DNA of 64,000 nucleotides from Aquabacterium sp. (GTDB lineage: Bacteria; Pseudomonadota; Gammaproteobacteria; Burkholderiales; Burkholderiaceae_C): positions 33,597 through 97,596 of the forward strand of contig NZ_JAUSAR010000082.1 of assembly GCF_030652515.1 (NCBI RefSeq). Reading direction: 5' to 3'. A program made the position numbers and the translations under genes. A model generated the notes under the pieces. The model saw only the letters and a list, made by a program, of their open reading frames with translations, had not been told where the DNA came from and ran no database searches. Every line of letters begins with the position of its first letter. The stretch's first letter is position 1. Below are positions 1 through 35,671 of this stretch, piece by piece.

Positions 1-1935
1 TTCCTCCATCAACGCAGCACCAACGCCCATGGTCATCGCACCGATCACCTGGCTGCGCGCACTTTTGGGGTTCAGTATCCTGCCTGCGGCGCAAACGGCC
101 AGCATGCGCCGCACCCGGATCTCGCCAGTGACGGCATCAACGCCCACCTCCACGAAGTGCGCGCCAAAGGTCGATTGCTGGTACTTCTTGTCGAGGTCAC
201 CAAACTCAATGGCGTCTTCGACCACCAGTTCCGCCTCCCCCGCTGCCTGCGCCAGCGGGATCGCGCGGTCGCCGCTCTTGACCATGCCATCAGAAAACGC
301 CACATCGGGCGACGTGATGCCGAGCTTGTTCGCCACGGCTTCGCGCAGCTTCATGCAAGCCGCATAGACGCCGGAGGTCGAGCTGTTGGCGCCCCACTGG
401 CCACCAGAGCCGGCCGATACAGGGTCCGCCGAATCACCCAGTCGCACGGCCACCCTGTTCAATGGCACACCCATCACTTCAGCAGCGGTTTGGGCGATGA
501 CGGTGTAGGAGCCGGTGCCGATGTCCGTCATGTCGGTTTCCACCGTGATCAGGCCCTGCTTGTTCAGGCGAACGCGGGCACCCGATTTCATCACCATGTT
601 GTTGCGGAAGGCCGCTGCCACGCCCATGCCCACGAGCCACCGACCATCTCGGACCTGGCCCGGTTGGGCCTTGCGCTGGGCCCAGCCGAAACGCTCCGCG
701 CCTGTGCGCAGACACTCGACCAGGCGACGTTGCGAGAACGGGCGGCCAGGCTTTTCAGGATCGACCTGCGTGTCGTTCAGCACGCGAAACTCGATGGGGT
801 CAAGGCCCAGCATTTCCGCCATCTCGTCCATCGCGATTTCTAGCGCCATCATGCCGGGCGCTTCGCCAGGAGCGCGCATGGCATTGCCCTCGGGCAGGTC
901 GAGCACGGCCAGGCGGGTCGTCGTCAGGCGATTTGCGCCCGCGTACAGCAGACGGGTCTGGTTGACGGCAGTTTCGGCTTGGCCATTGGGCAAGTCGCCA
1001 GACCAACTCTCGTGGGCCATGGCGGTGATCTTGCCATCGCGCGTGGCACCGATGCGGATGCGCTGGATGGTGGCTGGACGGTGCGTGGTGTTGTTGGCCA
1101 TCAAGGGCCTCTGCAGCGCCACCTTGACAGGCCGCTGCGCTGCCCGCGCACCCAAGGCGGCCAGAAGTGCATCGGCCCGCACGAACAGCTTGCCGCCAAA
1201 GCCGCCACCAATGAAGGGTGAGACCAGGCGGACGTTGGCCTTGGGCACGCCCAAGGTCTTGGCCAAGTCGCCCACGCTCCAGGCGATCATCTGGTTGGAT
1301 GTCCAGACCGTGAGCTTGTCGCCTTTCCAGGCTGCGGTCGAAGCGTGCGGCTCCATCATGGCGTGGGACTGATCTGGCGTGGTGTAGGTTGCGTCGAACT
1401 GCACCGGCGCCCCCGCATGAGCGCCGACAAAGTCACCGACCTTGGATTCCGGCGGACCGGCAGAGGGCGTCGGCTTGGGTGGCCGTGCCGCCTCTTTTTC
1501 CTTGGCAAGGTCAAACTTGCCCGGCAAGCGCACGTAGTCGATCCGGATCAGTTGCGCTGCGGCGCGCGCCTGCTCAAAGGTGTCTGCCACCACCAGGGCC
1601 AACGCTTGGTGGTAGTGCTGGATTTCCGGTCCGCCCAGCAGCTTGGCGGTGTTGAAATCACCTTTGCCCAGCTTGCCAGCGTTGCGGGCGGTCACGATGG
1701 TGATCACGCCGGGTGCAGCACGGGCCGCGCTCAGGTCCATGGAAGCGATGCGTCCCTTTGCAATGCCAGCGCCCAGCACGCAGCCGTGAGCGGCCTGGGG
1801 CGCCACGTCGTGGCGCTCATAGGCGTAGGGCGCGCGTCCCGAGGTCTTCAGCGGTCCGTCGATGCGGTCCGTCGGCTTGCCGATGATTTTGAGTTGGTCG
1901 ATCGGATTGGTCGTGGCAGGCGTGTCGAATTTCAT
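1..1935 (-). CDS. paoC: PaoC-type aldehyde oxidoreductase, molybdenum-binding subunit (3' end cut by window)
   Basis: This is the large molybdenum-cofactor subunit of a xanthine oxidase-family periplasmic aldehyde oxidoreductase, which oxidises aromatic and other aldehydes to acids. The open frame runs from the ATG at 1935 to the window edge, giving 645 residues of a protein that is about 730 in E. coli PaoC. It is missing from the ORF track because no stop is reached. Visible family features include an N-terminal IDGPLKTSGRAPYA stretch, the cofactor-binding FIGGGFGGK loop near residue 250 and a GSAGSGGQWGANSS loop further on. The start lies 2 nt after the paoB stop, so the two are translationally linked. 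The C-terminal catalytic glutamate region, and any XdhC-like chaperone gene (paoD), would lie outside the window. Confidence 0.92.
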   Translation of the reverse strand, partial: MKFDTPATTNPIDQLKIIGKPTDRIDGPLKTSGRAPYAYERHDVAPQAAHGCVLGAGIAKGRIASMDLSAARAAPGVITIVTARNAGKLGKGDFNTAKLLGGPEIQHYHQALALVVADTFEQARAAAQLIRIDYVRLPGKFDLAKEKEAARPPKPTPSAGPPESKVGDFVGAHAGAPVQFDATYTTPDQSHAMMEPHASTAAWKGDKLTVWTSNQMIAWSVGDLAKTLGVPKANVRLVSPFIGGGFGGKLFVRADALLAALGARAAQRPVKVALQRPLMANNTTHRPATIQRIRIGATRDGKITAMAHESWSGDLPNGQAETAVNQTRLLYAGANRLTTTRLAVLDLPEGNAMRAPGEAPGMMALEIAMDEMAEMLGLDPIEFRVLNDTQVDPEKPGRPFSQRRLVECLRTGAERFGWAQRKAQPGQVRDGRWLVGMGVAAAFRNNMVMKSGARVRLNKQGLITVETDMTDIGTGSYTVIAQTAAEVMGVPLNRVAVRLGDSADPVSAGSGGQWGANSSTSGVYAACMKLREAVANKLGITSPDVAFSDGMVKSGDRAIPLAQAAGEAELVVEDAIEFGDLDKKYQQSTFGAHFVEVGVDAVTGEIRVRRMLAVCAAGRILNPKSARSQVIGAMTMGVGAALMEE

Positions 1936-1937
1936 GG

Positions 1938-2888
1938 TCAAGTCCTCGCTTGAAGCAAGGCGGCAGCGAGCGAGCGCTCCGCCAAGACCAGCTTGAATGC
2001 GTTGTCCTCGGTCGGCTGTGCCCCGGCCAGCAGTTGTGACATCACGGCCGGAGCACCTCGTGACATCGAGGTCTCTGCGGCTTCCACGCGCCATGGCTTG
2101 TGCGCCACGCCACCAAGCGCCACCCTGCCCGATCCATCGCGCTGCACGATCGCTGCCACGGACACCAGTGCAAACGCGTACGAGGCGCGATCACGCACTT
2201 TTCGATAAACGTGTGTGCCGCCCAGCGGCTTGGGCAACAAGACGGAAGTGATCAGTTCATCCCGCTCCAAAGTCGTTTCGATGTGAGGAGTGTCGCCCGG
2301 CAGGCGGTAGAAATCAGCGATGGGAATCACGCGCCTGGCACCGTCCGGCCGCACGGTCTCAATGGTCGCATCCAACACCCGCATGGCCACGGCCATGTCG
2401 CTTGGGTGGGTAGCAATGCAGGCCTTGCTGGCCCCGATCACCGCGTGCTGGCGCGTGACGCCACCGATGGCACTGCAGCCGCTGCCGGGCAATCGCTTGT
2501 TGCAGGGTTGGTCTGTGTCGTAGAAGTAAGCGCAACGCGTGCGCTGCAACAGGTTGCCCGCTGTGGTGGCCTTGTTGCGCAATTGGCCCGAGGCGCCGGA
2601 CAACAAGGCCCGAGACAGCACGGCGTGGTCGCGCCGCACACGCTGGTCGGCGGCCAAATCGGTGTTGCGCACCAGGGCGCCAATGCGCAAACCGCCCTCG
2701 GGCGTGGCTTCGATCTTGTCCAGGGCCAGGCCGTTGACGTCCACCAGGTGCGTCGGCACCTCGATTTGCAGCTTCATCAGGTCCAGCAAGTTGGTGCCCC
2801 CCGCGATGAACTTGGCACCGGGGTGCCTGGACACGGCCAAGGCGGCTTCGGCGGGAGATTTCACCTTCTCGTACGTGAACGGTTTCAT
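1938..2888 (-). CDS. paoB: PaoB-type aldehyde oxidoreductase, FAD-binding subunit
   Basis: This is the FAD-binding medium subunit (316 aa) of the PaoABC complex, carrying electrons between the 2Fe-2S subunit and the acceptor. The FAD_binding_5 fold is shown by [14 protein letters not shown] near residue 30 and by [13 protein letters not shown] near residue 110. The Cys cluster in [19 protein letters not shown], with a further Cys eight residues on, matches the extra 4Fe-4S binding insertion of E. coli PaoB. The CO_deh_flav_C region follows ([16 protein letters not shown]). Its ATG overlaps the paoA stop by 4 nt, and its stop is 2 nt before paoC. Length and sequence agree closely with E. coli YagS/PaoB from memory. 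Confidence 0.93.
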
Positions 2889-3535
2889 GCCTGGCCTCCA
2901 GCGACTTCGGTGATCGCATCGACGATGTTGGAATAAGCCCCGCAGCGACAGAGGTTGCCGCTCATGCGTTCGCGCAGCTCTTCAGCCGACAGGAGTGGCC
3001 TGGCGTTGAGGTCGGCGCTCACGTGGCTGGGAATGCCGCGCTTGATTTCCTCCAGCACGGCCACCGCCGAGCAGATCTGCCCTGGTGTGCAGTAACCGCA
3101 TTGGTAGCCATCATGTTTGACGAAAGCGGCCTGCATGGGGTGCAATCGCCGAGGATTGCCCAGCCCTTCGATGGTGGTGACTTGGGCGCCGTCGTGCATG
3201 ACGGCCAGCGTCAGGCATGAGTTGATGCGCTGGCCATCCAGGATCACGGTGCAGGCGCCGCATTGCCCGTGGTCGCAGCCCTTTTTGGTGCCAGTCAGGT
3301 GCAGGTGTTCACGCAGCGCGTCGAGCAAGGTTGTTCGCGTGTCGAGCGCCAGAGCATGGGTTTGGTCATTGATGGTCAGCGACACTTTTGCCAACGGCGT
3401 CGGTAAATTCGACACGCGCGCTGACGCTTCGGCTGCGCCGGCCGGCGGTGCCGCCACCGCAGCGGCAGAAGCCGCGCCCACGATGAGCAGGTCACGGCGA
3501 GAGATCGTCGCGTCCAGGTCTGAAGGGTCGTCCAT
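2885..3535 (-). CDS. paoA: PaoA-type aldehyde oxidoreductase, 2Fe-2S subunit with Tat signal
   Basis: This is the small iron-sulfur subunit (216 aa) of the PaoABC aldehyde oxidoreductase. An N-terminal twin-arginine signal is visible as [23 protein letters not shown], so the assembled complex should be exported to the periplasm. The plant-type 2Fe-2S domain carries [11 protein letters not shown] near residue 90, and the second all-helical 2Fe-2S domain carries CGYCTPGQ and [12 protein letters not shown]. It is the first gene of the paoABC operon, transcribed leftwards. The region to 3666 separates it from the divergent acyltransferase gene and should hold both promoters, although I see no clear -35/-10 boxes. 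Confidence 0.93.
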
Positions 3536-3669
3536 GTCGGCTCCTGTGACTCATGCCAGTGATAAACCGACAAAATGGCAATTGACGTGCCGCAGCTGGC
3601 CTCGTCATCGGCCAGATGGGCTCCATGCGAATGCCCTAGACTGCGCAAACGTCCACCCCACACCGAGTG

Positions 3670-4539
3670 ATGCCTGCCGCCTCATCGCCATTAATCGATA
3701 CGCTCACCGAGATCAACATCGTTGATTTGCTGGATTCGATCGGCCTGTTGCGTTTTCAGGGCACACCTTTGCGTCGGCTGTTCAGGCCTGCGGCACGCCG
3801 CTTTGCCCGCACGGCAAATGAATTTGACAACCGCGTGGGCGACCACGGCCTGGCGCAAGGCAGTGCTTGGCTGATGAGCCAGATGACGGCTGGCGTGTGC
3901 ACCACGGGCCTGGAGCACATCCCGGCTCAGGGCCCCGTGTTCATCCTGGCCAACCACCCGGGCATGACCGACACAGTGGCACTGTTTGCCAGCCTGGCAT
4001 CGCGCCCTGACTTGCGGGTGATTGCGCTGGATCGCCCCTTCCTGCGCGCCTTGCCCCATGTCGCTCGGCAATTGATCTTCCTGCCCGAGGAAGAATCCGG
4101 GCGCATGGCCGTGGTCCGCGCTGGCGCCAAACACCTGAAGGAAGGCGGCGCCCTGCTGACATTCCCGGCCGGAGAGATCGAGCCCGACCCCGCCACCTTC
4201 GGCACGCAGCGGGCAGTGGACTCATTGCGGAGCTGGTCCAGCAGCTATGCCTTGTTCGCCCGCATGGCGCCCCAAACACAGTTTGTACCGACGCTGGTGA
4301 GCCACGTCATCTCGCCCGCGGCCCAGCGGCATCCGCTCACCCTGTTGCGGCGCACGGCACGCCAGAAAGAAAAGCTGGCAACAGCGCTGCAGGTGGCTTT
4401 GCCACGCTACCGTGACCTGGTCGCGAGGGTGACCTTCGGCGCACCACTGAGCGCCGATCAAGGCGATGCAAAAGCGCTTGGCCACTGCGTCACAGCACAG
4501 ATGCGGCAACTCATCCTGGCCCATGGATCGGTGGCCTGA
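3670..4539 (+). CDS. PlsC-like acyltransferase (1-acyl-glycerol-3-phosphate acyltransferase fold)
   Basis: This is a probable membrane-associated acyltransferase that moves an acyl chain from acyl-CoA or acyl-ACP to a hydroxyl acceptor. The PlsC/LPLAT signature is present: NHPGMTD is the catalytic H-x4-D motif near residue 95, and FPAGEIEPDP near residue 165 matches the acceptor-binding motif III. There is no obvious transmembrane segment. I chose the ATG at 3670 over the GTG immediately before it at 3667. The stop abuts the ATG of the next gene with no gap, so it heads the six-gene operon that follows. The substrate cannot be told; in this context it could acylate the small-molecule product of the cluster rather than lysophosphatidate. 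Confidence 0.75.
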   Translation: MPAASSPLIDTLTEINIVDLLDSIGLLRFQGTPLRRLFRPAARRFARTANEFDNRVGDHGLAQGSAWLMSQMTAGVCTTGLEHIPAQGPVFILANHPGMTDTVALFASLASRPDLRVIALDRPFLRALPHVARQLIFLPEEESGRMAVVRAGAKHLKEGGALLTFPAGEIEPDPATFGTQRAVDSLRSWSSSYALFARMAPQTQFVPTLVSHVISPAAQRHPLTLLRRTARQKEKLATALQVALPRYRDLVARVTFGAPLSADQGDAKALGHCVTAQMRQLILAHGSVA

Positions 4540-5523
4540 ATGAGCGATACCCTTGCCCAGGCCTGTTGGCTGACCCAACCCGGCCACGCCGAGTTGCGCA
4601 CAGAAATCTTGCCGCAGCCGGGGCCCGATCAAGTGCTGGTCAAAGCCCTGCACAGCGGCATCAGCCGAGGCACGGAAACCCTGGTGTTTCGCGGCGAGGT
4701 GCCTGCCAGCGAGTTTGAGCGCATGCGCGCGCCGTTTCAGGCTGGCGACTTTCCAGCGCCAGTGAAGTATGGCTACAACAGCGTTGGCCTGGTCGAGCAA
4801 GGCCCCGCTCATCTGCTGGGGCAAACGGTGTTCTGCCTCTACCCGCATCAGACCCATTACGTGGTGCCCGCCACCGCCGTGCACCTGCTGCCCCCGGACG
4901 TGCCGCCAGCGCGGGCCGTGCTGGCCGCCAATGTGGAAACGGCCGTCAATGCCCTGTGGGATGCGGCACCGCGTGTGGGCGACCGCATCGCCGTGGTGGG
5001 TGGTGGTACCGTCGGCCTGCTGGTGGCCTGGCTGGCGGCGCGCTTGCCCGGCTGCCAGGTTCAATTGGTGGACACGCAAGAGGCCAGGCGTGCTGTCGCT
5101 GAGCGCCTTCATGTCGACTTCGCTTTGCCCGATGCTGCACGCGGCGAGGCCGACCTGGTGATCCATGCCAGCGGCCAATCCGAAGGCCTGGCCACGGCCC
5201 TGAACCTGGCCGCCTTCGAGGCCACCGTGCTGGAGCTGAGCTGGTATGGCGAACGCCCCGTGACCGTGCCGCTGGGCGGTGCCTTTCACGCGCGCAGGCT
5301 CATCCTCAAAAGCTCGCAAGTGGGCCAGGTGGCCACCGCGCAGCGCGCTCGGTGGAGCCACCGGCGGCGCTTCGAGCTGGCCTTGTCATTCCTGAATCAC
5401 CCAGCGCTGGACGCATTGATCACCGACGCCTCGCCGTTTGCCGCCTTGCCTGAAGTGCTCGCACGATTGGCAGCCTCCAGGCTTGACACCACCTTGTGTC
5501 ACCGCATCGACTATCCGCAGTGA
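4540..5523 (+). CDS. MDR-family (zinc-type alcohol dehydrogenase-like) oxidoreductase
   Basis: This is a medium-chain dehydrogenase/reductase of 327 aa. It has the N-terminal GroES-like domain ([14 protein letters not shown]) and a Rossmann domain with [16 protein letters not shown] near residue 150. The catalytic Cys that ligates zinc in true alcohol dehydrogenases is replaced (GISRGTE instead of a CGICGTD-like motif) and the structural Cys lobe is absent, so it probably acts without the usual zinc site. It starts directly after the acyltransferase stop and ends 8 nt before the RibD-like gene. From memory, this branch of MDR proteins is often found beside PTPS-fold and RibD-fold genes, which suggests a redox step on a pterin or pyrimidine intermediate. 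That role is inference. Confidence 0.75.
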
Positions 5524-5531
5524 GGCGCCAG

Positions 5532-6317
5532 ATGAGCACCACGCCCCTCCCTCACGAAGACGAAGCCGAATGGCTGGACTTGCTGCGGGGACAAGACCCG
5601 TGCGCGATGGGTGGCGGCTCGCACATCCACACACTTTACGGCCCGCTCTTCGCCACGAAGCAGCAGCAGGGCACTTTCGTGGTCGGCCACCTGGCGCAGA
5701 GCCTGGACGGGCGCATCGCCACCACTTGCGGCGCCTCTCGCTGGCTCAGCGGCCAGGAAGACCTGATCCACACCCACCGCATGCGTGCCATCGCAGACGC
5801 TGTCATCGTGGGCGCCAACACGGTCCTTCACGACAACCCGCAACTCACGGTGCGGCTTTGCGCGGGCAACCATCCGGTGCGGGTGATCATTGATCCGGAG
5901 CATCGGCTCGATGGCAGCCAACGCGTCTTCATCGATGACGGCGTGCCCACCCTCCTCCTCGTCGCCGCAGACCGCGAAGGGGCTGAGCGCCAGTGGGGGC
6001 ATGCCGAAATCATCCCCCTGCCGCGCGGCCAGCACGGCCTCGACCCCTTCGCGATCCGCCGGACACTGGCGCTGCGCGGGCTGTCGTGGCTGTTCGTGGA
6101 AGGCGGCGGCATCACGGTATCCCGCTTCCTCGCTGCAGGTGCCCTCGACCGCCTGCAGATCACCGTCGCACCGGTCATCCTGGGCTCGGGCCGTCCCAGC
6201 GTGGTGCTGCCAGAGATCCACGATCTGGCACACAGCCTGCGACCGCTCACCCGCCGATTCCTGCTGGGTCAGGACACCATGATCGAGTGCGACTTCAATC
6301 CTGGCACCAACCACTGA
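5532..6317 (+). CDS. RibD C-terminal-type (dihydrofolate reductase-like) reductase
   Basis: This 261-residue protein belongs to the RibD reductase family, which reduces the ribosyl moiety of aminopyrimidines with NADPH in riboflavin synthesis and has been recruited in other pathways. The RibD_C signature is clear: VVGHLAQSLDGRIAT near residue 47, ADAVIVGANTVLHDNPQLTVR near residue 90, LFVEGGGITVSRFL near residue 190 and APVILGSGRP after it. There is no deaminase domain, so it is not a complete RibD. I took the ATG at 5532 instead of the longer frame from 5496 because that extension overlaps the upstream gene. It sits between an MDR dehydrogenase and a PTPS-fold protein in one operon. Confidence 0.8.
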   Translation: MSTTPLPHEDEAEWLDLLRGQDPCAMGGGSHIHTLYGPLFATKQQQGTFVVGHLAQSLDGRIATTCGASRWLSGQEDLIHTHRMRAIADAVIVGANTVLHDNPQLTVRLCAGNHPVRVIIDPEHRLDGSQRVFIDDGVPTLLLVAADREGAERQWGHAEIIPLPRGQHGLDPFAIRRTLALRGLSWLFVEGGGITVSRFLAAGALDRLQITVAPVILGSGRPSVVLPEIHDLAHSLRPLTRRFLLGQDTMIECDFNPGTNH

Positions 6318-6329
6318 GAACTCATCAAC

Positions 6330-6734
6330 ATGTACAGCCTTGCCGTCTCGGATCATTTCATGATCGCCCACAGTTTCCGTGGCGAAGTTTTTGGCCCGGC
6401 CCAGCAACTCCACGGCGCGACCTACAACGTCGAAATCGATTTTCGCCGCCCGACGCTCGACCAGCATGGCCTGGTGTGCGACATCGGCCTGGCCTTGCAG
6501 CTGCTGCGTGAAGTGCTGGCGGAGTTCAATTACAAGAACCTCGATGAACTGCCTCAATTCCAAGGCCGCAACACCACCACTGAACTGCTCGCCGGTGAGA
6601 TCTTTGCCCGTGTGAAAGCCCGTGTGGCCGAAGGTGACGTGGGGCCCGGCACGGCTGGCGAGCTGGCATCACTGCGGGTGGTCTTGCGTGAATCGCCTGT
6701 CGCCTGGGCCAGCTTCGAGGGTGCGCTTCGCTGA
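6330..6734 (+). CDS. Divergent PTPS/QueD-fold protein lacking catalytic residues
   Basis: This is a 134-residue protein of the 6-pyruvoyl-tetrahydropterin synthase / 6-carboxytetrahydropterin synthase (QueD) family. The fold signatures are AHSFRG near residue 13, QLHGATYNVE near 26, RNTTTELLA near 80 and a conserved Glu in LRESPVAW. Aligned by eye with E. coli QueD, the catalytic Cys position is Ala24 and the third zinc ligand (HGH) is Ala30. The catalytic Asp-His pair (LDHHYLND) reads FNYKNLDE, giving Asn67-Tyr68. Only His14 and His28 of the zinc site remain. It therefore probably binds a pterin-like ligand or catalyses a different reaction. The stop overlaps the next ATG (ATGA). Confidence 0.78.
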   Translation: MYSLAVSDHFMIAHSFRGEVFGPAQQLHGATYNVEIDFRRPTLDQHGLVCDIGLALQLLREVLAEFNYKNLDELPQFQGRNTTTELLAGEIFARVKARVAEGDVGPGTAGELASLRVVLRESPVAWASFEGALR

Positions 6735-7783
6735 TGGCATTGGCTTTTCTGGTGCCCGGGCAACTTGATCAGCTCACGGGCGGCTACCTTTATGACCGCC
6801 ACATCGTTGAAGGCCTGCGCGCGCGTGGCCAAGCGGTCACTGTCGTGGAGCTGCCCGGGCAGTATCCGCAAGCCGATGCGCCCACCCGCGCGTCCGCCGC
6901 CGCCGCGCTCGCCCAACTGCCAGACCAAAGCATGGTCATCATCGATGGCCTGGCGCTGCCCGGCCTTGCCGACTGCCTGCAAGCACAGGCCAGCCGCTTG
7001 CACCTGGTGGGCATGATCCACCATCCACTGTCCCTGGAAACAGGGTTGGATGCGGACAGTGCATGCCACTACGCACAGCTCGAAGCCGAACTGTGGCCAC
7101 ACCTGCAAGGCGCCATCTGCCCCAGCGAGAACACTGCCCGCGCGCTTCTGGCCGCAGGCCTGGCAGCGGATCGCGTGGCCGTGGTCAGCCCGGGAACACA
7201 CCGCCCAGCGAGCATCCACCGAGCCACGAGCCATGCCCCATTGCAACTGCTGGCCGTCGGCACCATCACGCCGCGCAAAGGCCACCTGCTGTTGGTCGAC
7301 GCCCTGGCCCATCTACCTGAGCTCGATTGGCGACTGAGCTGCATCGGCAGCTTGACGAGAGACCCCGCCGCCACGACCGCGCTGCAAGAACGCATCACAG
7401 CCCATGGCCTGGGTGACCGCATTGCCCTGCTTGGCGAACAAACCCCCGAGCAGCTGGCCCAGGCCTACCGGCAAGCCGACCTCTTCGCACTGCCTTCCTA
7501 CCATGAGGGCTACGGCATGGTCTTCGCCGAAGCGCTCGCCCACGGGCTGCCCATTCTGGCAACCACCGCCGTGGCCCTGACGGACACCATACCGGCTGAC
7601 GCTTTGCTGCTCGTGTCACCGGGCGATTTGCCAGCCCTGCGCGATGCACTTGAGCGGGCCCTGTGCGATGGCGACCTGCGTGCACGCCTGAGGGCCGCGG
7701 CACTGCGAGCTGCCAGCACGCTGCCCGACTGGGACCGCACTGTGCAGGACTGGATGGCGGCCCTGGAGAAGGTGACCCGATGA
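6734..7783 (+). CDS. Glycosyltransferase family 4 (GT-B fold)
   Basis: This is a 349-residue GT-B glycosyltransferase that probably transfers a sugar from a nucleotide-sugar donor to the cluster's product. The C-terminal glycosyl_transf_1 domain shows LLAVGTITPRKGHLLLVDAL near residue 170 and the retaining-GT E-x7-E motif in SYHEGYGMVFAEALAHG near residue 260. The N-terminal acceptor domain begins with LVPGQLDQLTGGYLYDR. There is no signal peptide or transmembrane helix, so it is cytoplasmic. It overlaps the PTPS-like gene by 1 nt and the methyltransferase by 4 nt. Together they suggest glycosylation and methylation of one small molecule, not envelope polysaccharide synthesis, because no other polysaccharide genes are present. 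Confidence 0.85.
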   Translation: MALAFLVPGQLDQLTGGYLYDRHIVEGLRARGQAVTVVELPGQYPQADAPTRASAAAALAQLPDQSMVIIDGLALPGLADCLQAQASRLHLVGMIHHPLSLETGLDADSACHYAQLEAELWPHLQGAICPSENTARALLAAGLAADRVAVVSPGTHRPASIHRATSHAPLQLLAVGTITPRKGHLLLVDALAHLPELDWRLSCIGSLTRDPAATTALQERITAHGLGDRIALLGEQTPEQLAQAYRQADLFALPSYHEGYGMVFAEALAHGLPILATTAVALTDTIPADALLLVSPGDLPALRDALERALCDGDLRARLRAAALRAASTLPDWDRTVQDWMAALEKVTR

Positions 7784-8664
7784 CCGGATTTTCAGCTGAC
7801 TGGTTGCGCCAGCGCGAACCCTTCGACCTGGCCGCGCGCAGTCAAACGCTCGCCCTCCAGTTTCGGGCCGCGCTGGTACAACGTGCTCCCGATGCGAACT
7901 TGCGCGTCATCGACCTGGCCTGCGGATCTGGCGCGAACTTCCGGGCGTTGGCCCCCCTTTTGCAAGCCGACCAGGAGTGGCTCATGCTCGACCACGATCC
8001 TTTGCTGCTGGCAGCCCAGCGAGCCGAGATTGCCCGGTGGGCGGCCCGGCAAGGGTGGGCATGTCAGGATCACGCTGGCACGCTCTCGATCCATGTCGGC
8101 CCGACCCGCTGGCTTGTTCGTGGCCAACAACTGGACTTGGCCCGCGACCTCGAAGCCCTTGATCTGGCTTCATGCGACGGCCTCGTCACCACCGCGTTTC
8201 TGGATCTGGTGTCCACCAGCTGGCTGGACAGGCTGAGCACGCTGCTGACGCGGACCCGCCGCCCCTTGCTGGCGACCTTGAGCGTGGACGGCCGACGCAC
8301 CTGGTCTCCAGACCGACCGACCGACCAGCTGGTCGCTGATGCCTTCTTGTCCCATCAGGGCAGTGACAAGGGCTTCGGACCATCACTGGGGATTGGGGCC
8401 GCCGACTATCTGGCCGACAGTCTTGCCATGGCGAGCTACCAAGTCAGCACCCAGGCCAGCGATTGGGCCATTGGCCCGGAGCACCGCGAGATGCTGGTAA
8501 CCATGGCGCAGGAAGCGGCAGCCGTGGCCATTGAAGCGAACCCGGCCAACGCACCCGCCGTGTCCGACTGGCTGGCCCAACGTTTGGCCAGTGCGCAGCA
8601 AGGCTTGCTGTCGTTGGAGGTTGGGCACCTGGATTTATTGGCCGTGCCACCGACCGAAAACTGA
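7780..8664 (+). CDS. Class I SAM-dependent methyltransferase
   Basis: This is a probable SAM-dependent methyltransferase of 294 aa. Motif I is visible as VIDLACGSGANFRAL near residue 45, followed by an acidic strand end (EWLMLDHD) that should contact the SAM ribose. I placed the start at the ATG at 7780, which forms an ATGA overlap with the glycosyltransferase stop; the track's longer frame from 7663 lies inside that gene. It is the last gene of the acyltransferase-MDR-RibD-PTPS-GT4-methyltransferase operon. The acceptor is unknown. A role in maturing a glycosylated pterin-like product is inference from the context. Confidence 0.78.
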   Translation: MTGFSADWLRQREPFDLAARSQTLALQFRAALVQRAPDANLRVIDLACGSGANFRALAPLLQADQEWLMLDHDPLLLAAQRAEIARWAARQGWACQDHAGTLSIHVGPTRWLVRGQQLDLARDLEALDLASCDGLVTTAFLDLVSTSWLDRLSTLLTRTRRPLLATLSVDGRRTWSPDRPTDQLVADAFLSHQGSDKGFGPSLGIGAADYLADSLAMASYQVSTQASDWAIGPEHREMLVTMAQEAAAVAIEANPANAPAVSDWLAQRLASAQQGLLSLEVGHLDLLAVPPTEN

Positions 8665-8689
8665 GCCCGATACTTGGAGGTCAGCGAAA

Positions 8690-8945
8690 TGTTCGAACCT
8701 TGCGAGGATCTGAGCCGCCATGCCCTGATGCTCTCTTTGAAGAGCGGCATCGCAACGGCAATGCGAGCGGGGCGGGAGGCCTCGGTGATGCCTTGTATGG
8801 AGAACCACTGCCAGCCTCAACCCAGGTCGCTTGGATGGGGCCGATCGAACGATGACGATCCACGCGTCAGGGATCGCGGACGCCAACTGCTGGCCCAGCG
8901 GTACCAAGCCATTCGGGTAGTTCATGTCGTCAGGCTTGCACCGTT
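8690..8945 (-). pseudogene. Remnant of a YpfH-like serine esterase
   Basis: On the minus strand this otherwise empty stretch encodes two pieces of a phospholipase/carboxylesterase-family esterase. One frame gives GLVPLGQQLASAIPDAWIV. A second frame gives HPSDLG, a TGA stop, then WQWFSIQGITEASRPARI and AMPLFKESIRAW. These match in order the early strands and the WFSxxGIT region of YpfH-like esterases. The gene therefore carries at least one frameshift and one in-frame stop, and it lacks the HG oxyanion segment and the GFSQGG nucleophile region. The left end runs up to the methyltransferase stop and the right end overlaps the 3' end of the dioxygenase gene. No product is expected. Confidence 0.6.
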
Positions 8946-9719
8946 GTGAAAAACAAAGCCATCCATGGACAGCACACCATGGGTGATGCCGCCTTCGATG
9001 ACTGTGGCAGCCCATGGCTCGGCCGCTGCGCCTGCGGCCACCAGGAGCGGCAGGAAGTGTTCGGATGTCGGGTGGGCGCGGCGTGCATGGGGGGCGTCGA
9101 TCAGGGTGCGGCGCAGCCGTTCAGCATCGCCGCGAATGACCGCGTCGCTGACCCATGCCGAGAACTCACGCACGTAGGCTGCGTCATCCAGTGAGCGGTG
9201 CATGAACTCGGACAGGTTGTGCGTCAGGCTCCCCGAGCCAACAATCAGCACGCCTTCATCCGCCAAAGGCGCGAGTGCCTGACCGAAGGCCCAAGCGCCA
9301 TCGGCATCCAGCCGAGCTGGCAGCGACACCTGAAAGACGGGCACGTCGGCCGCCGGATACATGTAGCGCATCGGCACCCAGGCGCCATGGTCCAGTCCGC
9401 GCACATCATCGGCACGCGGTGACCACCCGGCCTGGCGGAGCACCTGGACCGTTCTGTTTGCCAACCCAGGGTGTCCGGGGGCTGCGTAATGGATCTGGTG
9501 CAAGGCGGGCCCAAAGCCGCCGAAATCGTGGATGGTTTCAGGGCGCGCGGCCAGGCTGACGGTGGGGGCCATCGTCATCCAGTGCGGCGACACCAGCAGC
9601 ACTGCTTGTGGGCGTGGCAGCTCCTGACCAAGCGCAGCCAAACGGGGACCAGCCATTTCCGGTTCCAGCGCGAACGTGGGGGCGCCATGCGAAAGGAATA
9701 CGGTGGGCAGTCGAGCCAT
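8922..9719 (-). CDS. ygiD: YgiD/DODA-type extradiol dioxygenase (LigB superfamily)
   Basis: This 265-residue protein belongs to the class III extradiol ring-cleavage dioxygenase family, close to E. coli YgiD, a 4,5-DOPA dioxygenase. Metal-site candidates are His in FLSHGAPT near residue 11, SPHWMT near residue 46 and HGAWVPM near residue 110, with GSGSLTHNL further on. I chose the ATG at 9719 (MARLPTVFLSHG) because the motif begins there; the track's upstream extension to 10019 carries no family signal. It is a single gene divergent from the histidine kinase, with a 313-nt region between them. The physiological substrate is unknown. Confidence 0.85.
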   Translation of the reverse strand: MARLPTVFLSHGAPTFALEPEMAGPRLAALGQELPRPQAVLLVSPHWMTMAPTVSLAARPETIHDFGGFGPALHQIHYAAPGHPGLANRTVQVLRQAGWSPRADDVRGLDHGAWVPMRYMYPAADVPVFQVSLPARLDADGAWAFGQALAPLADEGVLIVGSGSLTHNLSEFMHRSLDDAAYVREFSAWVSDAVIRGDAERLRRTLIDAPHARRAHPTSEHFLPLLVAAGAAAEPWAATVIEGGITHGVLSMDGFVFHNGASLTT

Positions 9720-29765: not shown

Positions 29766-30104
29766 ATGACCTTTGTAGTGACCGATGCGTGCATTCAATG
29801 CAAATACACCGATTGCGTTGACGTCTGCCCCGTGGACTGCTTCATGGAGGGGCCCAACTTCCTGGTCATTGACCCCAGTGGCTGCATTGATTGCGCAGTG
29901 TGTGTTCCTGAATGCCCGGTAGAAGCCATCTATGCCGAAGAGGACCTTCCACCAGAGCAAGAACACTTTCTGAGGCTCAATGCGGAGATTGCTGCCGCAG
30001 GCAAGTGGCCTGTCATCAATGAGCGAAAGGATCCTTTGCCCGAGCATGCTCAGTTCAAGGACCTCAAGGGCAAGCTCCATTTGCTTGATGGCCATGGGAC
30101 TTGA
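29766..30104 (+). CDS. fdxA: Seven-iron ferredoxin, FdxA type
   Basis: This small electron carrier (112 aa) has a 3Fe-4S and a 4Fe-4S cluster, as in FdxA/FdI ferredoxins. Ligand patterns are [18 protein letters not shown] near residue 9 and [17 protein letters not shown] near 40. The C-terminal extension ([19 protein letters not shown]) is also typical of FdxA. Its 3' end overlaps moaA by 11 to 17 nt, so the two are coupled. It could supply electrons to the radical-SAM MoaA or to the molybdopterin enzyme downstream. The divergent TetR gene probably controls it. Confidence 0.93.
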
Positions 30105-31110
30105 ACCAGGGCTTGCTGCGCGAGCCGAGACCGACCAGCTGAAGGATGGTTTCAACCGCGTCATTGACTATCTGCGTGTGTCTGTGACCGATCGCTGTGA
30201 CATGCGCTGCGCCTATTGCATGCCCAAGGCATTCAAAGGATTTCAGGAGCCGGCCAACTGGCTCAGTCATCAAGAAACAGGCCGCCTCGTGAACTTGTTC
30301 GTCGGTCTGGGCATCAGCAAGGTGCGGCTCACAGGAGGGGAGCCTTTGCTGCGTCGGAACCTGCCTGATCTGGTCCGCAACCTGTCTTCTTTGCCCGGCT
30401 TGACAGACCTGTCACTCTCGACCAATGGCGCCCATCTTGTCGCGCACGCCCCTGCTCTGAAGGCCGCCGGTCTGCACCGCCTGAACGTGAGCCTGGACAC
30501 CTTGAAGCCGGCGAAATTCCACGAGATCACCCATCGGGATTGCCTGGAGGATGTGCTGGCGGGAATCCAGCTCGTGCTTGCGCTGGGCTTCAGTCCCATC
30601 AAGATCAACATGGTGGTGCAAGCCGGTGTCAATGACGATGAAGTCGATGACATGCTGCAGTTCGCGGTGGAGCATGGCTTGGTATTGCGTCTGATCGAAA
30701 CCATGCCGATCGGACACGCAGGCCTGGGAAAAACCGCCGTCGATTTGACGGCGCTGACCCGTAGGCTTGTCGAAAAGCACCGGCTCATACCGTACATCGA
30801 GCCAGCTAGAACAGGCCCTGCGCAAAATTGGCGCGTACCCAACAGTTCCGCCATGCTGGGTGTGATTACACCCATGTCTCAACATTTCTGCGCAGCGTGC
30901 AACAGGCTGAGGCTGGGTGTGGACGGAACGCTTTATCCATGCCTTGGCCATAACGACGCAACGCCCCTGGGTCGGATGATGAGGCGCGGTGCGTCGGACG
31001 CTGAATTGATAGAGGCGATCCTGTCGGCCGTGGCGCACAAGCCCGAACGGCACGAGTTTCACGAAAGACCGGAACGGGTTGTGCGGTTCATGTCGGCCAC
31101 GGGCGGCTGA
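30088..31110 (+). CDS. moaA: GTP 3',8-cyclase MoaA (molybdenum cofactor synthesis)
   Basis: This radical-SAM enzyme makes the first intermediate of molybdopterin from GTP, together with MoaC. The SAM-binding 4Fe-4S motif is [10 protein letters not shown] near residue 35, with [14 protein letters not shown] after it. The second cluster, which binds substrate, is [21 protein letters not shown] near residue 265. The protein ends in GG, as MoaA proteins do. I place the start at 30088 or 30094, inside the end of fdxA; the track's 29980 start is in the wrong context. No other Moco-synthesis gene is in the window, so this looks like an accessory copy placed with molybdoenzyme genes. Confidence 0.9.
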
Positions 31111-31249
31111 TGGGACGGCACAGGCATGGCACCCCATCGCGGATCGCCGCGGCCTTCTCATTCGATTGGCACATGCAGCATGAAGTTGGCGGCACGAATC
31201 AATCGAAAGCCGTTGTAATCAAATCGTTGAAGCAAAAGGACATCACATC

Positions 31250-32128
31250 ATGACCACGGAAATTGCAAGCGTCGAGATCAAGCCCCGCGAGCGGCTGGAC
31301 TTCAAGCTGGACACTGGATTGCCGCGCTTCTGGAATGGCGGTGATCCGTACAAGACACGCTTTTTCGATGCGATGTCCTTGACGTTTCCCATCGGAGAGC
31401 GCTATTTCATCAGCACGGTCCGGGCCTACCGCGATGACATCAAGGATCCGAAGCTGGCCGCGGAAGTGAAGGACTTCATTCGCCAGGAGGCGCAGCACGG
31501 CATGGTGCACGCCCAGTTCAATGACATGCTGGCCGAGCAAGGCATGGCGGTTCGCTGGACAGAACGCTTTCTTGAACGCAAGTTCAAATGGCAGAGCAGT
31601 CGTTGGTCCAAGGCTTTCAACCTGTCTTACACGGCCGCCGCAGAACACCTGACGGCCATGATGGGCACCACCTTCGTCCAGCGTCCCGAGATGTTCAAGA
31701 ACGCTGATCCGCGAATGGTCGCCATCTACGCCTGGCATTCGATCGAAGAGATCGAGCACAAGGCCGTGGCCTTCGATGTGCTGACGAAGGTCGCCAAGGC
31801 GAACTATTTCACACGCATCGCAGGCCTGATCTATTTCAGCATCGAGTATCCCATTGGCAACTGGTGGAGTGTGAATCAGATGCTGAAGGCCGATGGCTTT
31901 GGTGCATGGGCCCGCACCAAGATGCTGCTGAAGGGGGCCTGGTGGCTGTACAAGCCGGGCGGTGTATTCATGCCGGTCCTGGGCTATTACCTGTCGTACT
32001 TCAAGCCCGGATTCCATCCCTGGCAACACAAGGAGATGCCCGGCTACGAATCCTGGGTGCATACCTACGAAAAGACGGGCGACCCCATCAAGGCCTCCGA
32101 AGTGTTCCAGGGTCCCTTGACCACGTGA
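31250..32128 (+). CDS. Predicted metal-dependent hydrolase, PF10118 type (ferritin-like helices)
   Basis: This 292-residue protein belongs to the PF10118 predicted metal-dependent hydrolase family, which is helical and probably binds two metal ions. Candidate ligands are in FIRQEAQHGMVH near residue 79, TAAAEHLTAMM near 127 and HSIEEIEHKAVAFDV near 163, an E-x2-H spacing like di-iron proteins. Later hydrophobic stretches (IAGLIYFSIEYPIGNWW, GGVFMPVLGYYLSYF) suggest membrane association. The family's reaction is not established. It starts 140 nt after moaA and precedes an AraC gene on the same strand. Confidence 0.8.
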   Translation: MTTEIASVEIKPRERLDFKLDTGLPRFWNGGDPYKTRFFDAMSLTFPIGERYFISTVRAYRDDIKDPKLAAEVKDFIRQEAQHGMVHAQFNDMLAEQGMAVRWTERFLERKFKWQSSRWSKAFNLSYTAAAEHLTAMMGTTFVQRPEMFKNADPRMVAIYAWHSIEEIEHKAVAFDVLTKVAKANYFTRIAGLIYFSIEYPIGNWWSVNQMLKADGFGAWARTKMLLKGAWWLYKPGGVFMPVLGYYLSYFKPGFHPWQHKEMPGYESWVHTYEKTGDPIKASEVFQGPLTT

Positions 32129-32165
32129 TGCAGGGCTTCCCCCATACCGTAGAGGTGGTCAAGTC

Positions 32166-33236
32166 GTGTCCGAGCGCATTCTTAGAAATCTGACGTTCCC
32201 CGTGCAGTACCTGGAAATCGGCGAGTCCTTGGCCCGAGAGGGTGGACACGATCTTCAAGCACTGTACCGGTACTGCGGTATTGACCTGCCAACGCCCTTC
32301 ATGCCGTGGCAGACCATCAACGGCAAGCAAATGCAGCTGGCGTTGGCGTACTTCCTGAAAATGTGCCCCCCGGGTCGGCCTCCGCTGGTCACGTTCATGG
32401 AGCATTTTCCGTTGACGACCCACGGACCGATCGGCATGTTGGCCATCACTTCCGCCACCTTGGGAGAAGCCCTGCAGGGCGCGCTGACCTACGCGCCCTT
32501 GGTCATGCCCGCTTTCAGCATGCGACGCCAAGACCTGGGTGGCGAGGTGCACACGATCGTGGAACAGCAATGCGATTTCGGGGTCATCAATGACTTCTTC
32601 ACTGAAACGGTGGTGACAGCGCCTTTGAAGATCATGCCGTTCCTGACCGAGAAGATCACCGGCGCCTCGGTGCACCTCATGCATGGTCCCACGGGCGACC
32701 CAGCCGATTACGAAGCGGCCTTCGGGTTGAAGTTTTTCTTCAATGCGCGTCAGAACAAATTCGTCTTTCCCACGAAGGCCCTGGCCATTCCGCTCATCGC
32801 GCGCAGCCGGGCGTCGCATTTGCTGATGAAGGCCACGTTGGAGCAACAGTACGTGGCCGCTCATGGCCTGAAACCCTTGACGCAAGAAGTCAGGCGAATG
32901 CTGCATGCTGCCCTTGTCCAGAAGCAGGTGCTGGACGCCGACGGGTTGGCGCGAGCCTTGGCCATGTCACCACGCACCTTGAGCCGACGCATCAAAGCTG
33001 AGGGCTCGACGCTGCCACAGTTGCGCAGCGAGGTGGGCGTCGAATATGCCGAGATGCTGCTCCTGCAAACGGAAAAACCGATTGCTCAGATCGCACAGTC
33101 CGTCGGATTCGCCGATGCCGCCGCATTCACACGCGCTTTCAAGCGCACGACGGGACAGACCCCATCGCTTTGGCGACTGAGCCGCAAGGCCACCGAGATC
33201 CGCACGGCCCCGGCCTTGCTGACCCAGGTCGAATGA
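32166..33236 (+). CDS. AraC-family regulator with arabinose-binding-like N-terminus (OruR type)
   Basis: This 356-residue regulator starts at a GTG (32166). Residues about 15-210 form the Arabinose_bd-type domain (PVQYLEIGESLAREGG, PFMPWQTINGKQMQLAL). The AraC helix-turn-helix pair is at the C-terminus: DADGLARALAMSPRTLSRRIKAEG near 260 and PIAQIAQSVGFADAAAFTRAFKR near 312. It lies 37 nt after the PF10118 gene and 74 nt before the molybdopterin oxidoreductase, all rightward. It probably responds to a compound handled by these enzymes. The ligand is unknown. Confidence 0.87.
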   Translation: MSERILRNLTFPVQYLEIGESLAREGGHDLQALYRYCGIDLPTPFMPWQTINGKQMQLALAYFLKMCPPGRPPLVTFMEHFPLTTHGPIGMLAITSATLGEALQGALTYAPLVMPAFSMRRQDLGGEVHTIVEQQCDFGVINDFFTETVVTAPLKIMPFLTEKITGASVHLMHGPTGDPADYEAAFGLKFFFNARQNKFVFPTKALAIPLIARSRASHLLMKATLEQQYVAAHGLKPLTQEVRRMLHAALVQKQVLDADGLARALAMSPRTLSRRIKAEGSTLPQLRSEVGVEYAEMLLLQTEKPIAQIAQSVGFADAAAFTRAFKRTTGQTPSLWRLSRKATEIRTAPALLTQVE

Positions 33237-33310
33237 ACAGCGATGTCCAAGCATGGAATGCCATGCATGGCTCGCTGAAACCCTTTTGAGATGCTGCAAA
33301 GGCCAACCCT

Positions 33311-35671
33311 ATGTCCGAGACGAGAACCATCATCAACGGTCCAGCCAGCGTGCCAGCCAACGCGAAGGACGTGCCGACGGTCTGTGTATTCTGTACCCAC
33401 AATTGCAGCTTGACGGTCGATGTCAAAGACAATGTGATCACAGCCATCAGGGGTGATGAACGCAACCCCAACACTGGTGGCTACATGTGCAACAAGGCGC
33501 AGGCCATTCCCAATTACGTCAGGCACGTGCAGCGGCTGGAGCATCCGCTCAAGCGCATGCCCGATGGGCAATACCAGAGAATTTCCTGGGACCAGGCCAT
33601 CGGTGAAATTTCGGCGAAGCTCAACGCCATCCGCAAGAAGCACGCGCCACGCGCCATCGCCATGTTCGGCCTGGGCGGCCAGGGCAATCACATGGATGCT
33701 TTCGGCGCCTTGCCGTTCATGTTCAGCATCAACTCTCCCGTGTTCTTCAATGCGCTGGGCCAAGAGAAGACGCAGCACGCCCTGGTGTGGCGTCACATGT
33801 ACCGCGCAGGGCCGGACATCTATCTACCTGCGGATGAGGCAAAGTCTGACTACGTGCTGGTGATGGGCACGAACCCGCTCATCAGCAACCGGGGCCTGAA
33901 GCCGGTCGATGAGTACAAGAAGCTGACCTCTGATGCTGGCCGAAAGCTCGTGGTGATCGACCCGAGAATATCGGAAACGGCCAAAAGGGCAGACCGCCAC
34001 ATCCGCGTGAAGCCGGGAGGCGACGCGTACCTGCTGATGGGGTTCGTGGCCACCATCCTTCAAGAGGGACTGCAGAACAAGGCCTTCATTGAAAGCCGCG
34101 TCAACGGCTTCGAGGATTTGGCCGAAGGTTTCAAGGGTGTGGATCCCCAGAAGATGGCAGAGTATGCCGGCGTGAGTCAAGAGGACCTTGTCCTCACCGC
34201 TCGGGAGTTCGCTGCCGCCCCATCGGCGTGCATCGCCTGGGACCTGGGCGTGGAACACACCGTCAACTCGACCTTGAACTCCTACCTCATCAATGTGATG
34301 TTGTTGATCACGGGCAATGCGGGTCGAGAGAAGGGCAATCTGTTTGTCCAACAATTTGGACCAAGAGGCCGCTATCTGGAGACGCAGGCCAAGGCCCTGG
34401 TATCCGGCATCGAGGCGATTCCCTTCATCCTGCCCATAGGCATGTTTTCGCCCAACCTGGTGGCCGAAGAAATCCAGAACAAGCACCCAGACCGCATCCG
34501 TGCGTTGATCGTGGATTCCACGAATCCATTGGTGAGCTACGCCGACACCAAGGCCTTGAAGGCCGCGTTCGAAGAACTCGAGCTGATGGTGGTGATCGAA
34601 GTCGCCATGACTGAAACGGCGCGAGTGGCTGACTATGTGTTGCCCGCACCCGTGGGGTATGAGAAGTGGGAATATGCGACGTTCCCCCACATGCACTTCA
34701 CACCGCAACTGCGTCCGCCTGTTGTGAAAGGGCCGGACGAAGCCTTGCCTGAGCAAGAAATTTATTACCGCCTCACGCGTGCCATGGGCTTGGTTCCCAA
34801 AGCTCCGCGCATATTGCACATGCTTGCCAAGAAGGCAAGGTCACCTTTGGGCGCGCCTTTGTACTTGGGGACGCTGGCTGCGTTGGCCGCTGTGCGAGGT
34901 GGCGGCCTCTATCCAATCCTCGGTCGCATCATGACGTGGTTGTACGAAACCTTGGGTCAGACCTTGCCTTCGCCCGCGTTGGCGCCTTTGTGGCTCATCT
35001 GCCAAGGCTATGCGTTGACGCACCGCAAAGCACTCAATAAGGCGATTCCGGAAGCCCGCACGCACAAGAACCCATTTGCCGTCGGCGAGCTTGTTTTTGA
35101 AAAGTTGCTGGCACACCCCGAAGGATTCTTGGCTGGGGAGCTACCGCTTGAAGACAATTTCAAAGTGGGCTGCCGTCACCGGGATCGAAAGGCCCGGATC
35201 TACCATGCAGAATGGATGGCAGACATCAAGAAGCTTGCGCTGACCTCTCCTTCGCAACGAGACCCGTCCTATCCTTTCGTTCTCAACGGGGGGCTTCGCA
35301 CCGGTTGGACCGCCAACACCATTGTCAGAGACCCGGCATGGCGCAAAGGAAAGGGCCCGCATTGCGCTGTGTGGATGCATCCCAGCGATGCAGCCTCGCT
35401 GGGGGTTGGTGACGGCGACATGGTGCGATTGGAAACCAGGCGGGGCTTTTTGGAGGGTCCCGCGAAATTCGATGTCAATACGGCCATCGGGCATCTTCAA
35501 ATTCCAAACGGGTTCGGTCTGGAGTATCCAGACCCGGTCACAGGCAAGCTTAAATCCGTTGGCATGCTCGTCAATTCGATCGTGGATATCCGAGACCGCG
35601 ATCCATACACAGGAATTCCGCATACCAAATACATTCAATGTCGTGTTATTGCCGCCGATGTGTCGGTGTAA
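33311..35671 (+). CDS. Molybdopterin-dependent oxidoreductase (DMSO reductase superfamily)
   Basis: This is a full-length 786-residue molybdoenzyme. The N-terminal 4Fe-4S motif is CVFCTHNC followed by GGYMCNKAQ. The central molybdopterin domain shows MFGLGGQGNHMDAFG near residue 118 and YVLVMGTNPLISNRGL near 180. The C-terminal molydop_binding domain shows VGDGDMVRLETRRGFLEGPA near 697 and LQIPNGFGLEYPDP near 725. No Tat signal is present, so it should be cytoplasmic. It resembles the stand-alone anaerobic-dehydrogenase-like proteins of aerobic bacteria, whose substrates are unknown. Its neighbours fdxA and moaA offer an electron carrier and cofactor supply. A shrunken relative lies at 25011-25475. 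Confidence 0.87.
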   Translation: MSETRTIINGPASVPANAKDVPTVCVFCTHNCSLTVDVKDNVITAIRGDERNPNTGGYMCNKAQAIPNYVRHVQRLEHPLKRMPDGQYQRISWDQAIGEISAKLNAIRKKHAPRAIAMFGLGGQGNHMDAFGALPFMFSINSPVFFNALGQEKTQHALVWRHMYRAGPDIYLPADEAKSDYVLVMGTNPLISNRGLKPVDEYKKLTSDAGRKLVVIDPRISETAKRADRHIRVKPGGDAYLLMGFVATILQEGLQNKAFIESRVNGFEDLAEGFKGVDPQKMAEYAGVSQEDLVLTAREFAAAPSACIAWDLGVEHTVNSTLNSYLINVMLLITGNAGREKGNLFVQQFGPRGRYLETQAKALVSGIEAIPFILPIGMFSPNLVAEEIQNKHPDRIRALIVDSTNPLVSYADTKALKAAFEELELMVVIEVAMTETARVADYVLPAPVGYEKWEYATFPHMHFTPQLRPPVVKGPDEALPEQEIYYRLTRAMGLVPKAPRILHMLAKKARSPLGAPLYLGTLAALAAVRGGGLYPILGRIMTWLYETLGQTLPSPALAPLWLICQGYALTHRKALNKAIPEARTHKNPFAVGELVFEKLLAHPEGFLAGELPLEDNFKVGCRHRDRKARIYHAEWMADIKKLALTSPSQRDPSYPFVLNGGLRTGWTANTIVRDPAWRKGKGPHCAVWMHPSDAASLGVGDGDMVRLETRRGFLEGPAKFDVNTAIGHLQIPNGFGLEYPDPVTGKLKSVGMLVNSIVDIRDRDPYTGIPHTKYIQCRVIAADVSV

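Follow-up and report, generated by a model that had tools for sequence, protein, structure and literature searches.

PTPS-IV is a previously named subfamily of COG0720, defined by the signature FGPAQ, and the 2017 study that describes it (PMC5445326) gives PF00925 and RibD_C (PF01872) as its genomic neighbors. The same text labels PF00925 “FolE2/GTP cyclohydrolase I”, contrary to the identity of that family, which is GTP_cyclohydro2, or GTP cyclohydrolase II (GCH II). Here we analyze an operon of six plus-strand genes (positions 3670-8664) in a 64,000-nucleotide stretch of Aquabacterium sp. DNA (contig NZ_JAUSAR010000082.1), referred to as the window, which encodes an acyltransferase, an MDR dehydrogenase, a RibD-like reductase, a PTPS-IV protein, a GT4-family glycosyltransferase and a methyltransferase. 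Its PTPS-IV protein (6330..6734, PF01242 at 86 bits) matches SCO6650 of Streptomyces coelicolor (PDB 3D7J) at 140 bits and resembles it in the FGPAQ signature and in the loss of the catalytic triad. The structure of SCO6650 reportedly contains no zinc and no triad, and the protein is said to have no PTPS activity. We show that this subfamily belongs to a conserved gene cluster found in at least seven bacterial phyla and in the haloarchaeon Haloarcula, and that the membrane module flanking the cluster, where there is one, is of one of three kinds that never co-occur, which is a new finding. The MDR, GT4 and methyltransferase genes and the three modules are not described in the accessible part of PMC5445326. 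Compared with the neighborhood published there, this operon lacks GCH II and carries a PlsC-type acyltransferase; of the published pair, RibD_C lies in the operon, and GCH II stands beside the cluster in the sister species A. soli and in 31 of 108 loci.

Other described pterin systems are more distant. Pteridine glycosides of cyanobacteria and Chlorobium, made with a pteridine glycosyltransferase (PMC5683033), would fall in the same broad product class if the GT4/GT1-like enzyme of our cluster glycosylates a pterin. However, they start from tetrahydrobiopterin, via GTP cyclohydrolase I (GCH I) and a true PTPS, and they are not known to involve a RibD-like, MDR or PTPS-IV protein or a membrane module. 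Monapterin/PruA-PruR signaling (PMC13259868) offers an example of a redox-active pterin that acts outside the cytoplasm, with its membrane crossing stated as unknown, but its pterin is FolE-derived and it has no homologous gene set; this 2026 review of bacterial pterins mentions neither RibD nor 6-pyruvoyl enzymes. An earlier annotation of the window (the original prediction) knew of no characterized product for this combination of genes, and we likewise found none for the cluster in the literature searched.

A conserved gene cluster around PTPS-IV

A first scan with the PTPS-like protein alone as query gave 67 loci which, assigned by record titles that may err for metagenome-assembled genomes, belong to Pseudomonadota, Myxococcota, Actinomycetota, Bacteroidota, Planctomycetota, Verrucomicrobiota and Gemmatimonadota. 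Across the 108 loci compared, an MDR gene accompanies PTPS-IV in 104, a GT4 gene in 95, a RibD-like gene in 80, a methyltransferase gene in 71 and a GCH II gene in 31. The cluster also occurs on plasmid records of Thiodictyon, Streptomyces, Agrobacterium, Microbacterium, Methylosinus and Haloarcula. A sample not chosen by its neighbors gave a similar picture: when 299 Pseudomonadota genomes were searched with a PTPS profile, 19 matches (about 6% of the genomes) had E < 1e-50, followed by a clear gap to 1e-18, and the 18 genomes other than that of the window carry, within 9 kb, MDR and GT4 genes in every case, a RibD-like gene in 16, a methyltransferase in 12 and GCH II in 7. Carriage in Actinomycetota is at least 3.5% (7/199, strong matches); two loci of the actinobacterial set, L138 and L140, were left out as ordinary QueD-like proteins with the Cys. 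The core genes also agree in their pairwise distances (Mantel r 0.83-0.94, p 0.001). Chance adjacency is thus ruled out, since the genes recur jointly across phyla with congruent distances. The original prediction raised the question of whether the five partners recur with the PTPS-like gene across phyla, and would have been contradicted by homologs that rarely sit near RibD, GT4 and methyltransferase genes; these partners are common, and the prediction withstands this test.

The PTPS-IV signature FGPAQ occupies residues 21-25, with F21, G22 and A24 invariant in 26 relatives and P23 and Q25 conserved in at least 90%. On alignment to the true PTPS and QueD structures (1B66, 4NTK), FGPAQ stands at the position of the catalytic Cys, the Asp-His pair is replaced by Asn-Tyr (NYKNLD), and Ala usually takes the place of the third zinc His (HGA, 94%), so that one zinc ligand is lost; H14, H28, D51, T83 and the pterin-anchoring Glu121, which is invariant, are retained. 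In place of the QueD, PTPS-II and PTPS-III motifs (CxxxHGH, CxxxxxHGH, and ExxHGH with Asp-His), the protein has FGPAQxxHGA and NYKNLD, and it scores 44 bits against the QueD model, where the cut-off is 89. Judged by these residues, it is a member of the PTPS-IV subfamily with an altered catalytic site. An actinobacterial branch (loci L130-L137) keeps the HGH zinc motif and has lost the catalytic triad; this second, PTPS-IV-like branch comes from genomes of about 3-4 Mb and has the gene order acyltransferase, RibD, MDR, PTPS, GT4. The other PTPS paralog of the Aquabacterium genome (contig C77, locus L002) reads SRRIHGH, which fits neither CxxxHGH nor ExxHGH, and keeps LDHHFLD.

The RibD-like protein (5532..6317, about 260 aa) is a reductase only, with a RibD_C domain at 126.6 bits (PF01872, cut-off 24.1). 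It shares with RibD and Rib7 the RibD_C fold, the phosphoribose-type Arg residues and the catalytic Glu, but it lacks the deaminase domain fused to riboflavin RibD, a complete copy of which is encoded elsewhere in the genome (contig C176). Its relatives carry the signature (G/A)(H/Q)(L/F)(A/G)QSLDGR with D58, R84, R107 and E189 invariant, and R84, R107, D100 and E189, residues of the phosphoribose type, are kept; we take the Arg residues to hold the ribose phosphate, as in RibG structures. It further differs from RibD and Rib7 at the Lys position of bacterial RibD, which has His52 here (H in 40, Q in 10 and V in 1 of 51 sequences) and Lys in the genome's own riboflavin RibD. In bacterial RibD, selection of the deaminated substrate is attributed to this Lys, as reported for the BsRibG complex, and His or Gln in its place therefore suggests an undeaminated, 2-amino substrate.

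The remaining core enzymes are more loosely placed. The MDR dehydrogenase (4540..5523) falls below the ADH_zinc_N cut-off and is of the non-zinc kind, with Ser42 and Tyr/Asn in place of the Cys and His/Glu of zinc MDRs. Its nearest named relative is BchC of bacteriochlorophyll synthesis (E 6.5e-17), but it is no BchC equivalog (61.6 bits against a cut-off of 291) and the operon has no bacteriochlorophyll context. The glycosyltransferase (6734..7783; Glycos_transf_1, PF00534, 90 bits) has relatives among the known GT4 structures, for example 3c48 and 6kih. The methyltransferase (7780..8664) lies below all Pfam cut-offs, with Methyltransf_25 at 19 bits, and its AlphaFold model (pLDDT 96) places it among the class I SAM-dependent methyltransferases as a divergent member (3mgg, E 7.7e-12, TM 0.57). 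Four marine Bacteroidota and Glaciecola loci (L060, L064, L065, L066) have two or three additional methyltransferase genes, one of PEMT type, between their CDP-alcohol phosphatidyltransferase and sulfatase-like genes.

Mutually exclusive membrane modules

The acyltransferase (3670..4539) matches the PF01553 Acyltransferase family at 27 bits (cut-off 23) and has the HX4D motif as NHPGMTD, with N96, H97, P98, G99 and D102 invariant in eight relatives. The original prediction had listed it with the other five genes as part of one tailoring pathway. Our survey shows that it is not a core gene, as a PlsC-type acyltransferase flanks the cluster in only 16 of the 108 loci (those of the window's clade, three myxobacterial records and eight actinobacterial loci), while 29 have a CDP-alcohol phosphatidyltransferase, often accompanied by flippase-like and sulfatase-like genes, and 33 an MdoH-like membrane glycosyltransferase, often accompanied by cytochrome b561. 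No locus has two of the three modules, and the exclusivity of the CDP-alcohol phosphatidyltransferase and MdoH-like types has a p value of 3.7e-6 in the first 93 loci, with kinship ignored. On a tree of 104 MDR sequences, at least six changes of module label occur, and the acyltransferase clade that holds the window (support 100) is nested apart from the clade of myxobacterial and actinobacterial acyltransferase loci. The window is therefore a case of module exchange, in which the acyltransferase provides the local solution for a step that other lineages perform differently. The shared role of the modules may be to fix the product to the membrane or to move it there.

A conserved protein of about 300 aa (c12b; L009:5161-6102, L037:3371-4264 and 16 other loci) is found near MdoH-type clusters. 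It has no Pfam or NCBIfam match, and a fold search with its all-beta AlphaFold model (pLDDT 86) gave no significant match in the PDB.

A predicted pathway and its alternatives

Starting from the observed gene set, its conservation, the altered active sites and the exclusivity of the modules, we infer the reactions that follow, their order and their product. We propose, at even odds (a probability of about 0.5), that the operon is the acyltransferase-type version of a widespread pathway leading from GTP to a pterin-like compound that is glycosylated, usually methylated and associated with the membrane. The housekeeping GCH II (RibA, contig C40) would open GTP to 2,5-diamino-6-(5-phosphoribosylamino)pyrimidin-4-one, the sugar of which would be reduced to the ribityl form by the RibD-like enzyme, without earlier deamination. 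PTPS-IV would hold the 2-amino-4-oxo-pyrimidine via its conserved Glu and carry out a zinc-free step, either a ring closure or a rearrangement, toward a pterin-like bicycle; the MDR enzyme would alter the oxidation state of the side chain, GT4 would attach a sugar and the methyltransferase a methyl group. The PlsC-like enzyme would finally acylate the product and so lodge it in the membrane, a task that in other lineages would fall either to a CDP-alcohol phosphatidyltransferase together with a flippase-like protein or to an MdoH-like membrane glycosyltransferase.

The presumed source of the precursor varies among loci. In A. soli, a GCH II gene adjoins the operon in addition to RibA and RibBA; this extra RibA-type gene is absent from an acyltransferase-type sister genome and from that of the window, whose GCH II genes lie on contigs C40 (RibA), C176 and C9 and whose GCH I gene lies on C54. 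As GCH II is not in the operon, the housekeeping RibA probably supplies its precursor. The cluster of Streptomyces fungicidicus has GCH II beside a creatininase-family gene, and that of Haloarcula includes a creatininase gene; a creatininase-family formamidase of Sinorhizobium, BrbF, deformylates toward the same diaminopyrimidine phosphate (PMC9478397). The original prediction of a complete tailoring pathway without a cyclohydrolase is correct in that the operon has none, but the gap is peculiar to this locus, given that elsewhere GCH II is often found nearby and in A. soli adjoins the operon.

Some of this evidence would also fit a split bypass of GCH I, where GCH II makes the diaminopyrimidine phosphate, PTPS-IV converts it to dihydroneopterin phosphate by an Amadori rearrangement and ring closure, and a DHFR-like dihydropterin reductase, the RibD-like protein, acts before glycosylation and methylation. 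These two PTPS-IV reactions are the zinc-free half of GCH I chemistry, and PTPS-IV has a T-fold like that of GCH I, with the pterin-anchoring Glu kept and zinc ligands lost in the main branch. RibD_C and DHFR share a common fold, and Streptomyces loci without the RibD-like gene still have GCH II and PTPS-IV. We nevertheless consider such a bypass unlikely, given that the RibD-like family keeps its presumed ribose phosphate-binding Arg residues, which fits ribosyl reduction better, that the genome already has GCH I and that the HGH branch retains the full zinc site. Less likely again is a membrane glycolipid or cell-surface glycan pathway that recruited PTPS- and RibD-fold proteins for some other ligand and involves no pterin. 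The GT4, methyltransferase, acyltransferase, CDP-alcohol phosphatidyltransferase, flippase-like, sulfatase-like and MdoH-like partners are indeed typical of envelope pathways, but GCH II and creatininase-type genes, which recur with the cluster, have no role in lipid synthesis, and the pterin-anchoring Glu and phosphoribose residues are invariant across seven phyla.

The automatic names “6-carboxytetrahydropterin synthase” and “RibD family protein” would make these genes redundant parts of riboflavin, folate or queuosine synthesis, which we reject as highly improbable on the grounds of separate genes and differing residues: the genome has its own RibD (C176), RibBA, RibA, FolE and PTPS paralog (C77) apart from the operon, the catalytic residues differ, including those of QueD, which are missing, and GCH II is the only gene of the rib, fol or que type observed to travel with the cluster. 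The original prediction had likewise set the operon apart from riboflavin and queuosine synthesis. A role of PTPS-IV in coenzyme F420 synthesis, raised in an unpublished remark in PMC5041015, has next to no probability and is rejected for this lineage, as the F420 marker CofH, which the same search finds in control organisms, is missing both from the window's genome and from 18 of the 19 Pseudomonadota genomes with PTPS-IV.

A GTP-derived 2-amino-4-oxo-pyrimidine or pterin is the supported substrate class, and this part of the original prediction, which proposed a modified pterin- or pyrimidine-like compound, stands together with the conserved cluster; its PTPS-like protein turns out to be a member of an altered subfamily already named, and the acyltransferase is not part of the core. 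Several observations weigh against the pathway that we favor. The literature searched offers no product for it; in 30 of the 108 loci, some of them at contig ends, a stretch of 9 kb holds no module of the three kinds, and the exclusivity counts are incompletely corrected for relatedness. The RibD-like subfamily is absent from Streptomyces-type and Arthrobacter-type genomes, so that its step is not universal, and the methyltransferase is missing from many loci.

More tentatively, the cluster could make molecules of a new class, pterin-like redox cofactors or pigments that are glycosylated, occur in at least seven bacterial phyla and haloarchaea, and are anchored in the membrane in three interchangeable ways: by O-acylation, by CDP-alcohol phosphodiester transfer or by an MdoH-type membrane glycosyltransferase. 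Cytochrome b561 near 24 of the 108 clusters hints at trans-membrane electron transfer. If the product is a membrane pterin, it would be a new class of cofactor or pigment and would matter for understanding how pterins work beyond the cytoplasm. The genes of the pathway are at present carried under names that wrongly point to queuosine and riboflavin, and with the full gene set and its three module types, what was a vague “PTPS homolog of unknown function” becomes a pathway that can be tested and whose precursor is predicted.

Operon layout and neighboring genes

All six open reading frames of the operon were confirmed, in a genome of 5.4 Mb whose closest PTPS relatives, from Aquabacterium and Leptothrix records, are 93-97% identical. 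The acyltransferase starts at ATG 3670, directly after GTG 3667, and abuts the MDR gene (0 nt, TGAATG); spacings of 8 nt (MDR to RibD-like) and 12 nt (RibD-like to PTPS) follow, and then overlaps of -1 nt (PTPS to GT4, TGATG) and -4 nt (GT4 to methyltransferase, ATGA). The reading frames and junctions agree with the original prediction of six packed, co-directional genes with gaps of at most 12 nt and no GTP cyclohydrolase gene among them. Its family calls are also backed, by Pfam and NCBIfam for the acyltransferase, RibD_C, PTPS and GT4, by fold for the methyltransferase and through the BchC match for the MDR protein. The promoter presumably lies in the 134-bp divergent intergenic region (3536..3669) between the operon and a minus-strand molybdenum hydroxylase operon, a placement that follows the layout, since a sigma-70 consensus scan of 3400-9000 gave no match; consensus promoter and terminator scans found nothing exceeding shuffles.

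The molybdenum hydroxylase trio (1-3535, minus strand) encodes MoCoBD, FAD_binding_5 and Tat-signaled 2Fe-2S subunits. In two other loci (L004, L005), the same trio lies on the opposite side of the operon, after the methyltransferase gene. Its adjacency has therefore outlived rearrangement, and the trio may possibly be tied to pterin oxidation. Molybdenum cofactor use is well represented near the operon, as a MoaA-like radical SAM protein and a molybdopterin oxidoreductase are encoded at 29980-35671. Farther along the window, GC content falls to 0.52-0.57 from 52 kb on; this segment, which encodes a 648-aa DUF3732 protein (59640-61586, minus strand), has possibly been acquired laterally.

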